From positions 1 through 30,694 of the IMG/VR virus record IMGVR_UViG_3300046683_000196: a stretch of 30,694 bases of DNA. The stretch is one strand, 5' to 3'. The stretch's first letter is position 1. Each line of letters begins with the position of its first letter. Shown one piece after another: positions 9,954 to 18,291 of this stretch. The notes under the pieces are model-generated. The model did no database searches. It saw only the letters and a list, made by a program, of their open reading frames with translations, and was not told the origin of the DNA. The position numbers were made by a program, and so were the translations under genes. The stretch comes from a virus.

Positions 9954-10871
9954 ATGGCGAGAGGTTTAATCGCGAGAGGCATGCGAAACGGAACGCAGCG
10001 CGGCGTTGTCTTGTATGGCGTTGAATTGCGAGACGCCAAAGAGGAAGTCTTTGTTCGCATGGTCTGCGACGGCCTTGCTTTGGGTATTGCGTTCGCAAGG
10101 GCTGGTTTTTCGAGCAAGGCAAAAGACGCGGCCGCAAACCTTTTCAATCTGCCAAGAGTTCAAGAGAGGGCGAGGGCGATACTTGAGGCCAGACGGTCAA
10201 CCGGCGTGGTGACCCTGCCTCAAGTCACCGACATGCTCCAAAGGGTTTTCGCAGGGGCTCACAGCGAGGGCGAGTATAGCGCCGCGCACAATGCGGCCTT
10301 CAGTCTGGCGAGGCTCTATGGCCACGTTACGGACAAGGCCACCTTGGAAGTTATCCGCAGGCCCTCGCGTGATCCCGACGCGCCTTCAGAGCAAGCCCTG
10401 AGCGCATGGGTTGAGGCCCTGCCAGCCCTTCCGGGCCCGGGCCCGGGCCTTGAGGGCGAGGCCTCAGGACAGGCCACGTTCCTGCGCCTCGCCGACGCGC
10501 CCGCAACTCTATTGGGCCCTCAAACCCCGGGCCCCGAGCCCTCAAACCTAAATGAAAACAATAGCTTACCAAGCCCTGAACCACCATTGCATCAAGCCCA
10601 ATCCGCAGGGCCCGGGCCCTCGGGCCCTGAATTGTTCAATGAAATCAATTGGTTACGAGGGCCCGAGCCTTGGGTGGCGGGGCGACCCGAAAACGGGGCC
10701 CCAGCTCGGCCGGTAACCGGGACCCCTATCAGTGGCGCGCACGCCGCCCCATTAAGCGAAGGGGTTGCACCCCCCACCCCCTCAAAGAAAGAGGGGTTGA
10801 TTGGCAATGAGGGTACCAGTACCAATACGGGGGAAAGCGAATGGCCTAGCGCGGAGGAGCTTTTCGGATGA
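9954..10871 (+). CDS. terS: Probable terminase small subunit with long Pro/Gly-rich tail
   Basis: The 305-residue product has an N-terminal helical region, FVRMVCDGLALGIAFARAGF followed by SSKAKDAAANLFNLPRVQERARAIL, that matches the helix-turn-helix layout of small terminase subunits, which recognise phage DNA and regulate the large subunit. A conserved-looking second helical part (QVTDMLQRVFAGAHSEGEYS, then AAHNAAFSLARLYG) follows. From about residue 155 the protein becomes a low-complexity Pro/Gly/Ala tail ending WPSAEELFG, making it longer than the usual 130-200 residues. GAGGG precedes the ATG by four bases. Its stop overlaps the large terminase start (ATGA), strong support for the assignment. 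The tail coding region carries nine GGGCCC palindromes. Confidence 0.72.
   Translation: MARGLIARGMRNGTQRGVVLYGVELRDAKEEVFVRMVCDGLALGIAFARAGFSSKAKDAAANLFNLPRVQERARAILEARRSTGVVTLPQVTDMLQRVFAGAHSEGEYSAAHNAAFSLARLYGHVTDKATLEVIRRPSRDPDAPSEQALSAWVEALPALPGPGPGLEGEASGQATFLRLADAPATLLGPQTPGPEPSNLNENNSLPSPEPPLHQAQSAGPGPSGPELFNEINWLRGPEPWVAGRPENGAPARPVTGTPISGAHAAPLSEGVAPPTPSKKEGLIGNEGTSTNTGESEWPSAEELFG
10433..10701. repeat. Cluster of nine GGGCCC palindromes inside terS
   Basis: GGGCCC occurs at 10433, 10439, 10514, 10529, 10608, 10614, 10622, 10659 and 10696, where well under one is expected in 269 bp. They encode mostly Gly-Pro, Pro-Gly and neighbouring residues of the small terminase tail. Packaging start sites often lie in or near small terminase genes, so a role in packaging recognition is possible; codon-level low complexity is the simpler explanation. 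Confidence 0.6.
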
Positions 10872-12286
10872 AGATCATCACGGGGTTCAAGCCCCAGCCC
10901 GGGCCCCAGCACCATTTCCTGACGTGCCCTGCCGATATTGTGGTTTACGGCGGTGCCCGGGGCGGCGGGAAATCTTTCGCGAGCCTTGGCGAATTTTGGT
11001 GCCATAGCGAGGACTGGGGTCCCGCCGCAAAGGGCTTGATGCTGCGCCGCTCTCGCGAGGATCTAAAAGACACCATAGATGTCGCCCGTCAGATGTACGG
11101 GGATGCCGCCGAGTGGAAAGACAAGGAGAAGCAGTTTCGTTTCCGCAATGGTGCCGTTTTTCACATGGCCTATCTGGAGAGCGATGCCGATGCGATGAAC
11201 TATCAGGGCTGGTCCCTGACGCGCGTCTATGTGGAAGAACTGACACAGTACGCCAGTTCTGCGGGTATCTTCAGGCTGTTCGCCACTTTGAGGACCACGT
11301 CGGGGGCCCGCTGCCAGTTCCGCGCGACGTGCAACCCCGGCGGCCCGGGCCATCACTGGGTAAAATCATGGGTGATCGACAACGGCGCGTATAAGCCAGT
11401 CAAGGACAGCGAGACAGGCCTGATCCGCATCTTCATCCCCGCGAAGATTTCGGATAATCCGCAGCTTCTCAACAACGATCCCGGCTACATCAACCGCCTG
11501 CGGGCCTCCGGCAGCGCCGCACTCGTTCGTGCTTGGCTGGAAGGCGACTGGAACGTGATCGAGGGCGCGTTCTTCCCCGAGTTCGATCCCGCCCGTCATG
11601 TGATAACTCCCCCGCGCATGCCGCTGCACTGGACGCGATTTAGGTCCATGGACTGGGGATCGGCAAGCCCGTTCTCTCTCGGCTGGTGGATCGTGGCGCA
11701 GGAGGACTTCATCCATGACAAGCGACGCATCCCCAAGAACGCCATCATCCGTTATCGCGAGTGGTACGGAGCCTCCGGACCCAACAAGGGCCTCAAGCTG
11801 CCCGCCGATGCCGTCGCCAAGGAAGTCGTCCGGCGCGAAACAGATGGCAAAGGCTTCAGGGAGCCCATTGCGTACGGTATCTTGGACCCCTCGGCATTTC
11901 AAGTTGTGTCAGGCCCGTCGATTGGTGAGACGTTTGCGCGGCATGGCGTTTATTTCAGGCGTGCCGATAATTCTCGTGTTTCGACCCCAAAACGAATGGG
12001 TGGTTGGGATCAGGTTCGTTGGCGGCTCCGTGGTGATGACGACGGCGACCCGATGATCTTCTTCGTCGATCATTGCAAGGACGCCATCCGCACGCTCCCC
12101 ATGCAGCAGCACGACGAGAACCGCATGGAGGACCTCGACACCGAGGGCGAGGACCACGCCGTCGATGATATTCGCTACGCCTGCATGTCGAGGCCCTTCG
12201 GGGCCCGCGTCGAGGCGGACGAGGATCTCAACCCGCTTCTTGTGCGAAACGCTTTCAAGCTCGACGAACTGTCCGAACGGGTGTAG
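10868..12286 (+). CDS. terL: Terminase large subunit (packaging ATPase-nuclease)
   Basis: This 472-residue protein is the motor that cuts and pumps phage DNA into the prohead. The ATPase domain has Walker A GGARGGGKS (K35), Walker B RVYVEEL (E123-E124) and the coupling motif CNPGGPGHHWV. The C-terminal RNase H-like nuclease shows its three acidic positions: SMDWGSAS (D262), LDPSAF (D340) and HAVDDIRYA (D433-D434). Length and motif order match complete large terminases. The start at 10868 has GGAGGAG eight bases upstream and overlaps the preceding stop, so the two subunits are translationally coupled. It docks on the portal encoded next. Confidence 0.96.
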   Translation: MKIITGFKPQPGPQHHFLTCPADIVVYGGARGGGKSFASLGEFWCHSEDWGPAAKGLMLRRSREDLKDTIDVARQMYGDAAEWKDKEKQFRFRNGAVFHMAYLESDADAMNYQGWSLTRVYVEELTQYASSAGIFRLFATLRTTSGARCQFRATCNPGGPGHHWVKSWVIDNGAYKPVKDSETGLIRIFIPAKISDNPQLLNNDPGYINRLRASGSAALVRAWLEGDWNVIEGAFFPEFDPARHVITPPRMPLHWTRFRSMDWGSASPFSLGWWIVAQEDFIHDKRRIPKNAIIRYREWYGASGPNKGLKLPADAVAKEVVRRETDGKGFREPIAYGILDPSAFQVVSGPSIGETFARHGVYFRRADNSRVSTPKRMGGWDQVRWRLRGDDDGDPMIFFVDHCKDAIRTLPMQQHDENRMEDLDTEGEDHAVDDIRYACMSRPFGARVEADEDLNPLLVRNAFKLDELSERV

Positions 12287-14721: not shown

Positions 14722-15012
14722 ATGGCTGATACCCCGACAGCGACACCCGCGAACGCGCTTCCTCCCGAGGACTACCTGACCGAGAAGGAGCAGGACGCCT
14801 CGACCGGCGGCAGCGGCGTAGGGCCCGTCACCCCTGCCGAAGAACCGGCTCCGATAGAGACCATGGAGGATCTGGGCATCGGCGCGTCCGATCCCTATCC
14901 GTCTGCCGACACGCCACCTGCGCGGGACGTGAAAACCCCGAAAGCCGCGAAAGCCGCGAAAGTTCCGGCTTCCGACGCCTTCGGCAACCCGATCCCGAAA
15001 GGCGGTGCGTGA
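14722..15012 (+). CDS. Small acidic Pro/Ala-rich protein, 96 residues
   Basis: GAGGAG eight bases before the ATG at 14722 supports this start. The protein is acidic and disordered-looking: MADTPTATPANALPPEDY, then EPAPIETMEDLGIGASDPYP, and a lysine/alanine stretch KTPKAAKAAKVPASDAFG. No fold is recognised. It sits between portal and the IPT/TIG-domain gene and its stop overlaps the next start (TGATG), so it belongs to the head operon. A minor structural or assembly protein is likely; function unknown. Confidence 0.75.
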   Translation: MADTPTATPANALPPEDYLTEKEQDASTGGSGVGPVTPAEEPAPIETMEDLGIGASDPYPSADTPPARDVKTPKAAKAAKVPASDAFGNPIPKGGA

Positions 15013-15611
15013 TGGGCATGATCCGCTATCCGCTGCCGATCACCGCCGCGATGCTGGCACCCGCCAATACGTTCTGCGACCGGCCGCGCTACAGCTCGAT
15101 GACCGACTGGCACGGCGGCCAGTTCGGCAACGAGGAGGATCAGGCCGAGGCGACGCAGGCCATCGCCAACTCCTGCTCCGCCCGCGTCGAGACCGACTAC
15201 GACCCGCAGCACCAGAAGGCCAAGGCAGGCGACATGGTGCCGCCGTTGCAGATCCTCGACGATCTCGGCAAGGACTACGGCATCTACGCTGGCGGCGCGG
15301 GTCGTACCGGCTACGTCACGCCGCAGTCGTCCTATCCGGACGCCACCTCGCCGCCGGTCGTGACCAATGTCAGCCCGGCCTCGGGCTTGGCTGCGGGCGG
15401 CACCGCCATCACGATCACCGGCATGGGCTTTACCGGAACAACCGGCGTCACCGTCGGCGGTACGGCAGCCACGGCGGTCGTCGTGGTGAACTCCAGCACC
15501 ATCACCTGTACGACACCCGCGCATGCCGTCGGCACCGTTGACGTGCGGGTGACGACACCCAAAGGCTCCAGCTCGATCACCACCACCGCCGACAATTTCA
15601 TCTACACATGA
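15012..15611 (+). CDS. Virion protein with C-terminal IPT/TIG immunoglobulin-like domain
   Basis: I place the start at the ATG at 15012, overlapping the preceding stop, giving 199 residues; a GTG at 15009 is less likely. The first 110 residues (RYPLPITAAMLAPANTFCDR, then YSSMTDWHGGQFGNEEDQAE) have no family I can name. Residues about 114-199 form an IPT/TIG Ig-like domain: VVTNVSPASGLAAGGTAITI, then TGMGFTGTTGVTVGGTAA, and ITCTTPAHAVGTVDVRVTT, the usual 'P-x-x-G-x-x-x-G-G-x-x-V/I-T-I-x-G-x-x-F' pattern. Ig-like domains on phage heads and tails decorate the surface and bind cell-surface carbohydrate. A head decoration protein is my inference from its location before the scaffold and capsid genes. 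Confidence 0.75.
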   Translation: MGMIRYPLPITAAMLAPANTFCDRPRYSSMTDWHGGQFGNEEDQAEATQAIANSCSARVETDYDPQHQKAKAGDMVPPLQILDDLGKDYGIYAGGAGRTGYVTPQSSYPDATSPPVVTNVSPASGLAAGGTAITITGMGFTGTTGVTVGGTAATAVVVVNSSTITCTTPAHAVGTVDVRVTTPKGSSSITTTADNFIYT

Positions 15612-15880
15612 GCAGCGGCCTCAGACCCAACGACCAGATGCACCTGCCGGGCCTCGGCGTCCCCGTCGATCCGTGGACCCGGCAGCAGTTGCAGCCGGTA
15701 ATTTCGGAACGGCTCAACAGGCTCAGGATCGCCGAACGTGAGTTTCGCCTCGTCCTGCACGAATTGGACGGTACGACAGAAGGCTCGCGGCCCGGCAACC
15801 GGCGCATGGCCCTTGCCTTCACCAGCCTTGAGCAAGCCATGCTGTGGGCGGGGGAAGCAGTCTTGCACGGAGACGACTGA
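15608..15880 (+). CDS. Acb2/Tad1-type helical hairpin protein (candidate anti-CBASS sponge)
   Basis: This 90-residue protein starts within the preceding stop (ATGA). Residues about 32-54 (ISERLNRLRIAEREFRLVLH) form one amphipathic helix; after a loop, residues 65-87 (RRMALAFTSLEQAMLWAGEA) form a second. The second helix matches the hallmark of the Acb2/Tad1 hairpin family, roughly 'S-x-x-x-x-L-A-x-T-x-L-E-x-A-x-x-W-A-x-x-A-I'. Acb2 proteins are small phage oligomers that sequester cyclic dinucleotides and trinucleotides, blocking CBASS immunity. An N-terminal segment rich in proline precedes the hairpin, as in several homologues. The position inside the head operon would give late expression. 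It could also be an uncharacterised structural relative that does not bind nucleotides. Confidence 0.7.
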   Translation: MSSGLRPNDQMHLPGLGVPVDPWTRQQLQPVISERLNRLRIAEREFRLVLHELDGTTEGSRPGNRRMALAFTSLEQAMLWAGEAVLHGDD

Positions 15881-16155
15881 TGCCCGTCTATGTTCTCTAC
15901 GAGGGCCGGTTGATCGACAAGAGGTATCGCCCGGCGCGGTCCACACACGCCGCCTCCGATCTTCCGGCCCCCGCCGTGCAGTCGTTCGAGACTTACGCCT
16001 CTCCAGTTGACGACAGCACCATTTCGTCGCACCGCCAGCGCGACAAAGATCTTCACGCCTCGGGAAGCTACGACCCCCGGGACACCCCCGCGTCCTTCAG
16101 GAGAGCCAAAGATGCCCGCAGACAATCCAACCAACGAAGCGCCGCCCTCGCTTAG
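15880..16155 (+). CDS. Small conserved phage head-operon protein, 91 residues
   Basis: The ATG at 15880 overlaps the preceding stop (TGATG), so I prefer it to an upstream in-frame ATG at 15844. The protein begins MPVYVLYEGRLIDKRYRP and contains VQSFETYASPVDDSTISSHR followed by QRDKDLHASGSYDPRD. The arrangement 'F-x-x-Y-x-S-P-V...I-S-S-x-R-Q-R-x-x-D-L' recurs in small proteins encoded near scaffold genes in many tailed phages. It is basic overall with an Arg/Lys-rich end. Its last 44 bases overlap the scaffold gene in another frame. Function unknown; a head assembly role is inferred from location. Confidence 0.75.
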   Translation: MPVYVLYEGRLIDKRYRPARSTHAASDLPAPAVQSFETYASPVDDSTISSHRQRDKDLHASGSYDPRDTPASFRRAKDARRQSNQRSAALA

Positions 16156-17320
16156 GGACATCGCCGAACAGGCCTACGACGATCTCGAAACCGCCGCCGA
16201 GGCCGAGGCCCCCGCCGAAGGCCCGGGCCCCGCAGAAGAAGGGGGTGCCGAAGAACCCCTTGCGGAAAGCTCCCAACCGCGCGATAAAAGCGGTCGCTGG
16301 GTTCCCAAAGACGGGGAGCGCCAGCCGGGCGAAGCAATCGAACCTCTCGATCCAGCCCCGAAGAAACCAATTCAAGCTACCCAGACGCCGCCGACTGATC
16401 CAGCCGCCGCTCAACCGGCGCGAAGCAATCAGGTACCGGAGCACTGGAGCGCAGAAGACAAGGCGACCTTCGCCAAACTTCCTCAAGAGGGCCAAGCCTT
16501 CCTGCTGAAGCGTCACGGCGAAATGGAAGCCGAGTTCACGCGCAAATCACAGGCGAGTGCGGGAGCAGTCCAGTTCACGCAGGCGCTTGCGCCGGTCTTC
16601 AACGATCCGCAGATCGCGGCATCGTTGAAGCAGGCGGGGGTTCATCCGGTCCAAGCCATTCAGGAATGGGCGACTTGGCACAAGATGGGCACCTCGCCCG
16701 ACCAGCAGGACAAGTTCAAGCTGCTGGTGGGACTGACGCAACGCATGGGGCTGGACCCAGCGCGCATTTTCTCTGCCTTGAATAACCAGCCGCCGCCGGG
16801 CCCGATAGGGCTTTCCGAGGAAGACCTCAAGGACCCGGCAGTCAAGTTCATCGCCGACCACCTCGGCAAGACGTCGAACGAACTCGCAACCATCCGGGGC
16901 GAGTTGCAACGCAGGGATCAGATCGAGCAGCAGGCTCGGGCTGACTGGAGTGTCAGAAGTGCCAGACAGGGGATCGACGGCTTCGCGGACGAAAAGTCGA
17001 AGGATGGACGCCCGTTGCGCCCGCACTTCGACGCCGTGCTGCCGATCCTCATCGACTTCTTCAAGGCCAATCCGCAACGCAATCTGGCCGAGGCCTATGA
17101 CGCTGCCTGCTGGGCTCACCCGGAAGTCAGGAAGCAATTGCTGGCGGCGGAGCAATACCGCAGCCAGTCGCAGAATGACATCGCAAGGGCGCGGATTGCG
17201 CAAAGGGGCAACACGCGGGGGATCACCACTCCCGTCGCGAGGCCCAACGGCGCGGACGGGCCCTCGCGGGGCGGTATTCGGGACACCATCGAGCAGTCTG
17301 CCGACGAGGTTGGATTTTAA
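16112..17320 (+). CDS. Scaffold-like protein preceding the capsid gene
   Basis: The 402-residue product from the ATG at 16112 (AGGAG eight bases upstream) has a long acidic Ala/Glu/Pro-rich N-terminus (ETAAEAEAPAEGPGPAEEGG), then VPEHWSAEDKATFAKLPQEG and QAFLLKRHGEMEAEFTRKSQ, and helical charged repeats. This pattern, placed directly before the major capsid gene, is that of podovirus scaffolding proteins, which direct prohead assembly and then leave. The C-terminal part (ARIAQRGNTRGITTPVARPN and following) is basic, as scaffold capsid-binding tails often are. An in-frame ATG at 16007 would overlap the previous gene extensively and give a disordered leader, so I reject it. Confidence 0.78.
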   Translation: MPADNPTNEAPPSLRDIAEQAYDDLETAAEAEAPAEGPGPAEEGGAEEPLAESSQPRDKSGRWVPKDGERQPGEAIEPLDPAPKKPIQATQTPPTDPAAAQPARSNQVPEHWSAEDKATFAKLPQEGQAFLLKRHGEMEAEFTRKSQASAGAVQFTQALAPVFNDPQIAASLKQAGVHPVQAIQEWATWHKMGTSPDQQDKFKLLVGLTQRMGLDPARIFSALNNQPPPGPIGLSEEDLKDPAVKFIADHLGKTSNELATIRGELQRRDQIEQQARADWSVRSARQGIDGFADEKSKDGRPLRPHFDAVLPILIDFFKANPQRNLAEAYDAACWAHPEVRKQLLAAEQYRSQSQNDIARARIAQRGNTRGITTPVARPNGADGPSRGGIRDTIEQSADEVGF

Positions 17321-17337: not shown

Positions 17338-18291
17338 ATGGCCGACCCGACAGTCTCCATGCTCGTCGCCACCACGATCCAGAACTACCACAAGCAGTTC
17401 GCCGATAACGTCTCCAACAGTAACGCTGTTACCGCCCTTCTGCGCGAAGGCAACCGCGTCCGCGTCATCGAAGGCGGCCGCGCCATTGCGTGTCCGCTGA
17501 CCTACGCCGAGGAAACCTTTGCGTGGTACCTCGGGACCGAACTTCTGTCCCGCGCCACCAAGGACACGATCTCGGAGGCGCACTACGATCCGGCCAACGC
17601 CGTCGCCAGCATCACGCTCTCGGGCCCCGATCTGGCGAAGAACCGTTCGCGCGAGCGCATCCTCAATCTCCTTGAGGGCAAGCTCGACAACGCCGAAAGC
17701 ACCATGAAGAACAACATTACCAAGGCCGTCTACGGCGACGGTACGGTTGCCAAATCCTTCGTGGGCCTCAAGGGCATGGTCACGGCCGACGGCCTCGGCA
17801 TCATCGGCGGCATCGACGCGGGCACTTGGATCTTCTGGAAGAACCAGTTCCAAGCGGTCGCCCGCGCCACGGGCCTGCAATATCCGGCCCTCAAGGCAGG
17901 CATGAACGCGCTGTGGATGAAACTGATCCGTGGCGCAGAAAAACCCGACCTGATCGTCGCCGACGGCGAAATCTATTCCACCTACGAAAGCGGCCTTCAG
18001 GAGAACCAGCGTTACGCCGACGCCAAACTGGGATCTCTCGGCTTCGAGACGCTGAAGTACAAGAGCGCGCCGCTGGTGTTCGACGGTGCCGCAACGGGTA
18101 TTACCGGCGCGTACTACCTCAACACCAAGTACATGAAGTTCGAGATTTATTCCGGCCGTAATTTCGAGGCCCTCGACCTTCCCGACCAGAGCCCCGACAT
18201 GGACGCGGTGACGCGCCACATGGCGTTCATGGGGGCGCTAACGCTCTCCAACCGATCCATGCAGGGCAGGCTGACCGCTACGGGCACCTGA
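17338..18291 (+). CDS. Major capsid protein (HK97 fold)
   Basis: This 317-residue protein follows the scaffold with AGGAG seven bases before its ATG. It has the length and texture of HK97-fold capsid proteins without a prodomain: a helical N-arm (MADPTVSMLVATTIQNYHKQ), an E-loop-like strand region (VRVIEGGRAIACPLTYAEET), the spine-helix region (NLLEGKLDNAESTMKNNITK), and the axial/P-domain end (VTRHMAFMGALTLSNRSMQG). It forms the icosahedral shell. An intrinsic terminator stands right after the stop, which would make the capsid message the 3' end of a strongly expressed segment. Confidence 0.88.
   Translation: MADPTVSMLVATTIQNYHKQFADNVSNSNAVTALLREGNRVRVIEGGRAIACPLTYAEETFAWYLGTELLSRATKDTISEAHYDPANAVASITLSGPDLAKNRSRERILNLLEGKLDNAESTMKNNITKAVYGDGTVAKSFVGLKGMVTADGLGIIGGIDAGTWIFWKNQFQAVARATGLQYPALKAGMNALWMKLIRGAEKPDLIVADGEIYSTYESGLQENQRYADAKLGSLGFETLKYKSAPLVFDGAATGITGAYYLNTKYMKFEIYSGRNFEALDLPDQSPDMDAVTRHMAFMGALTLSNRSMQGRLTATGT

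Follow-up and report, generated by a model that had tools for sequence, protein, structure and literature searches.

A candidate cyclic-nucleotide sponge of the Acb2/Tad1 hairpin superfamily in a conserved slot of a phage head operon

The phage proteins Acb2 and Tad1 act as sponges for cyclic di- and trinucleotides, and Tad1 takes up gcADPR as well (PMC12043709). In Acb2 of phage T4 (Vs.4), the Y8A substitution abolishes Panoptes activation, and Phe82 makes a stacking contact with the ligand (PMC12657218). The T4 substitution T68M, at the position equivalent to Thr72 of the protein described here, reportedly lowers Acb2 binding (PMC12657230). The founding acb2 gene, that of PaP2, adjoins replication genes, whereas the gene described here lies in a head operon.

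The window, that is, the whole 30,694-nucleotide stretch of viral DNA that we analyzed (IMG/VR record IMGVR_UViG_3300046683_000196), carries this hairpin gene among the following features.

10868..12286, + strand: terminase large subunit, 43% identical to the annotated terminase of MW202489.1
12313..14706, + strand: portal protein with a proline-rich insert, weak match to the SU10 portal (E=1.4e-5), 29% identical to the annotated Mx8 portal
15009..15611, + strand: TIG (Ig-like) domain protein of 200 aa (PF01833, E=1.6e-17)
15608..15880, + strand: Acb2/Tad1-hairpin (PF24729) protein of 90 aa, encoding MSSGLRPNDQMHLPGLGVPVDPWTRQQLQPVISERLNRLRIAEREFRLVLHELDGTTEGSRPGNRRMALAFTSLEQAMLWAGEAVLHGDD
15880..16155, + strand: g91, a conserved 91-aa protein directly downstream of the hairpin gene, with no Pfam or PHROG match
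16112..17320, + strand: putative scaffold protein, so named because its gene precedes that of the major capsid protein and weakly matches the Mx8 gene found there
17338..18291, + strand: major capsid protein of Mx8 type, 317 aa, 38% identical to the annotated capsid of Bradyrhizobium phage ppBjS10J-1 and 35% to that of Mx8

Our preferred reading, to which we assign a probability of roughly 0.6, is that the gene is accessory and serves counter-defence: its product, from a new hairpin subfamily, would sequester a cyclic-nucleotide alarm signal, and the gene is carried in a head-operon slot.

The open reading frame runs from an ATG at 15608 to a stop codon at 15878-15880, where an earlier note on this DNA, made from the letters alone, had placed it. 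The protein consists of an N-terminal arm (about residues 6-25), helix 1 (30-54), the loop HELDGTTEGSRPGNRRM and helix 2 (65-87). The motif L-A-x-T-x-L-E-x-A-x-x-W-A, which the same note had read in the second helix, matches residues 69-81 exactly. The ATG shares the sequence ATGA (15608-15611) with the stop codon of the upstream TIG-domain gene, and the stop codon shares TGATG (15878-15882) with the ATG of g91. Given these overlaps and the lack of an obvious ribosome-binding site upstream of the hairpin ATG, translational coupling to the neighbours is plausible from the sequence. A promoter scan detected no internal promoter, although such a scan carries little weight at high GC content.

The earlier note had also assigned the protein to the Acb2/Tad1 hairpin family, and the profile search agrees: PF24729 (Acb2_Tad1_hairpin) matches residues 33-85 with E=1.6e-8 and 35.1 bits, above its curated cut-off of 27 bits, and is the only Pfam family to match. 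Homologues in the same operon slot fall into type A, to which this gene belongs, and type B, found in more distant relatives; PF24729 is detected at E<=1 in 40 of these 43 slot proteins. Other searches returned little. PHROGs gave weak matches to families of unknown function, NCBIfam and PADLOC gave none, and searching PDB sequences with this one protein yielded chance matches only. A profile built from 16 orthologues reached T4 Vs.4 weakly (E=1.6); a designed helical protein that ranked above it was dismissed as coiled-helix noise. Against 50,697 phage records, the best match to type A was 33% identical (E=0.05) and none was close, and type B had no match at E<=0.01; mycobacteriophage and Gordonia matches to type A were discarded, with E>0.3. 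Since no phage record matches closely, types A and B widen the range of sequences known for the family. Taken with the structure comparison below, membership in the Acb2/Tad1 hairpin superfamily is secure, and closeness to Acb2 itself is not.

AlphaFold predicted with high confidence two long antiparallel helices, one spanning 30-54 and the other 65-87; block means of pLDDT exceed 90 throughout residues 31-80. The prediction is in line with the two-helix hairpin that had been proposed from the letters. A second model, built with 43 sequences, likewise had low confidence at the N-terminus. A short helix at residues 7-11 appeared in the first model only and was disregarded. In a Foldseek search of 350,542 PDB chains, T4 Vs.4/Acb2 and PaP2 Acb2 led the list (probability 0.6-0.8) with either model; the top five hits were all Acb2 chains, but their E-values of 0.59-1.8 are non-significant alone.

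The protein has in common with Acb2 (PaMx33/PaP2, 8h2j and 8h2x; T4 Vs.4, 7uq2) two antiparallel helices and the Pfam family. Where Acb2 has a short N-terminal helix, however, it has an extended Pro/Gly arm. With Tad1 it has in common, by name, the Pfam hairpin model; the four-stranded antiparallel sheet at the Tad1 N-terminus is absent, as about 28 residues precede helix 1 and AlphaFold predicted no N-terminal beta-sheet in them. In type A the arm RPNDQMHLPGLGVPVDPWTG is nearly invariant (RPNDQMxLPGLGVPVDPxTG), and the loop consensus is LHELDGTTxGSxPGxRxM. Type B reads GPRD...VPVN..TG...MH.AEGS.PPGEHQEH.F.SRRM.IAATHLE.ALM.ARKA, so the arm is partly kept there (VPVN..TG). A third group, type C, comprises hairpins of IMG/VR phages with the consensus GEYRVGI.FNPS...RLKALAQT.IEDAAMWAVKAATK; these belong to the same family and are shorter than type A, with an aromatic-x-Pro N-terminus. 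HMM-HMM comparison linked type A to type B strongly (probability 98, E 4e-14). The links from type B to type C (probability 93) and from type C to canonical Acb2 (probability 95) were weaker than this, and the direct comparison of type A with canonical Acb2 was weak (probability 24).

To compare pocket residues, we anchored the alignment on the helix-2 Thr, the residue at T4 position 68, which is kept in the hairpin protein. An Arg seven residues before it is present in 25/25 type A, 17/19 type B and 26/26 type C proteins and in 27/29 PaP2-like Acb2 proteins, and is Asp in T4 Vs.4. In type A these residues are Arg65 (25/25) and Thr72 (21/25), and type C likewise keeps both. The Arg corresponds to position 67 of PaMx33/PaP2 Acb2, which we take to be a trinucleotide contact at the trimer interface. 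The aromatics of the Acb2 dinucleotide pocket are missing: the position of T4 Phe82 is Leu, Met or Ile in type A and mostly Leu in type B, and in a helix-start alignment no aromatic occupies the position of T4 Tyr8. Trp23, in the arm near that position, does not align with Tyr8 and is not invariant.

From its sequence, the hairpin protein is a new subfamily of the superfamily, as it has the Pro/Gly-rich arm in place of the Acb2 helix or the Tad1 sheet and lacks the dinucleotide-pocket aromatics. The missing aromatics also weaken any specific claim of Acb2-like dinucleotide binding. Since the helix-2 Arg is kept and the dinucleotide-stacking aromatics are not, we would weakly guess at a cyclic trinucleotide, bound at the trimer-interface site, as the ligand, though the odds are against this particular choice. 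A variant of our preferred reading is that the protein is a sponge for a signal that is not an Acb2 ligand, either gcADPR isomers, as for Tad1, or a novel signal, with the conserved arm as a new pocket. The conservation of the arm in types A and B and the loss of the Acb2 pocket aromatics point toward it, but the arm is too short for the four-stranded Tad1 sheet and has low AlphaFold confidence. We consider this variant possible, at well below even odds.

We next consider selection. Measured against the window sequences, the median dN/dS was 0.25 for the hairpin gene, 0.23 for the scaffold gene, 0.42 for the TIG-domain gene and 0.07 for the capsid gene. Together with the PF24729 match, this value and the presence of orthologues in 26 IMG/VR contigs argue that the reading frame is not a chance one; a search of the GTDB genome collection turned up no chromosomal orthologue. 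The gene is real, constrained and moderately fast-evolving. That some relatives do without it might suggest a decayed or neutral passenger, but purifying selection and 33 invariant columns in the alignment of 16 orthologues make this highly improbable.

The order TIG, hairpin, g91, scaffold, capsid was found wherever a contig reaches in the 26 orthologue contigs, a set selected by the hairpin itself. The placement in a head operon and the Ig-domain neighbour upstream, both claimed in the earlier note, hold in the window, and the position is conserved across relatives. As an independent sample, we took 80 loci picked by their capsid. At a capsid identity of at least 87%, every readable slot holds type A. 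At 79-84%, the slot holds type B in 12 loci, type C in L109 and an A-like protein in L100, and has no hairpin in L104, L105, L108, L111, L115 and L117-L119; some of the loci counted here are identical to one another. After identical loci were collapsed and the hairpin-selected loci were added, the census was 25 slots with A, 16 with B, one with A and C, one with C and three with none. In the A and C case (L090), the two genes stand in tandem, the 67-aa type C gene (L090:5349-5552) directly after the type A gene.

More distant relatives lack the gene. Aureimonas prophages, with capsids 45-48% identical, have portal, a g91-like gene, scaffold and capsid, and neither TIG nor hairpin gene; PF24729 at E<=10 found nothing in the records of Mx8, Mx9, BUCT555 and ppBjS10J-1. 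Since these prophages and Mx8/Mx9 have related capsids and portals, a head can be built without the hairpin protein, and this speaks against the protein being an indispensable component of the virion. The earlier note had entertained packaging into virions, an idea that none of these observations supports. Hyphomicrobiales akin to Aureimonas are a guess at the hosts.

These data bear on a different explanation, in which the Acb2 hairpin has been co-opted, with no nucleotide binding, for a helper in head assembly or a minor protein of the virion; the protein might, for instance, act as a chaperone of g91 or of the TIG protein. A gene that is never lost within the closest clade would also fit such a role, as would its conserved position with codons overlapping both neighbours, its scaffold-like dN/dS and the nearly invariant N-terminal arm, which is unseen in known sponges. 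On the other hand, relatives whose portal, scaffold and capsid are homologous lack the hairpin, another hairpin type replaces it (L109) or joins it (L090), and the only Pfam family matched is that of sponges. We regard a helper as unlikely, though well short of negligible. A head that can dispense with the hairpin and a slot whose content is exchangeable favour accessory cargo.

Under our preferred reading of a sponge, the protein would most likely oligomerise through its helical hairpin and, in the late phase of infection, sequester a cyclic-nucleotide alarm signal, thereby inhibiting CBASS or a similar signalling system. We infer the oligomer, the signal binding, the CBASS-type inhibition and the late timing by analogy with known sponges and from the operon. 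The placement in the head operon suggests late production with the capsid proteins, the hairpin protein being translated from the same message just ahead of scaffold and capsid. At that stage, capsid protein or late transcripts may trigger CBASS or Thoeris. Capsid mutations aid phage escape from CBASS, although wild-type capsid alone is not toxic (PMC10419184); Thoeris ThsB1 recognises the major head protein (PMC12043709); and a staphylococcal CBASS cyclase is reportedly activated by an RNA from terminase genes (PMC10686824).

The novelty lies in the slot, which is conserved and adjoins genes with products linked to the triggering of CBASS or Thoeris: a whole virus group carries a hairpin in its head operon next to such kinds of genes. 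If the sponge reading is true, the phage would produce its counter-defence along with the capsid proteins. A bolder version, which we hold only tentatively, is a dedicated sponge slot in the capsid operon that puts antidote and trigger on one message, the protein being a third architectural class with a separate pocket at the N-terminus and perhaps a novel ligand. In the open-access literature, to which our search was confined, nothing that we found describes a sponge slot in a head operon.

Hairpins of type C occur at several genome locations, in the same slot (L109, L090) or beside terminase or portal genes (L283, L234). An extra type C hairpin lies between terminase and portal in L043/L065 (L043:2614-2817) and L038/L078 (L038:650-853), and the unrelated phage contig L283 has the order terminase, hairpin, portal. 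A preference of type C hairpins for packaging genes was considered as a general rule and dropped, their neighbours being mixed and including ribonucleotide reductase and helicase genes. In G044, the contig of L118, which has no slot hairpin, PF24729 has a match on the upstream side of the head genes. Two relatives, L014 (5170-5718) and L078 (4514-5086), have a proline-rich ORF of 182-190 aa inserted between TIG gene and hairpin, so that other cargo also enters the slot.

The TIG-domain gene evolves fastest among the genes compared, and in some relatives it is shorter and apparently lacks the TIG domain (e.g. L090:4725-5078), a pattern that would suit a decoration protein in contact with the host. 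A shorter look-alike of g91, matched by eye, apparently holds the position right before the scaffold gene even in the Aureimonas prophages, and g91 may be a core head-assembly factor. The portal protein has a long Pro/Gly/Met-rich insert near residues 130-245, plus a Pro-rich C-terminus.
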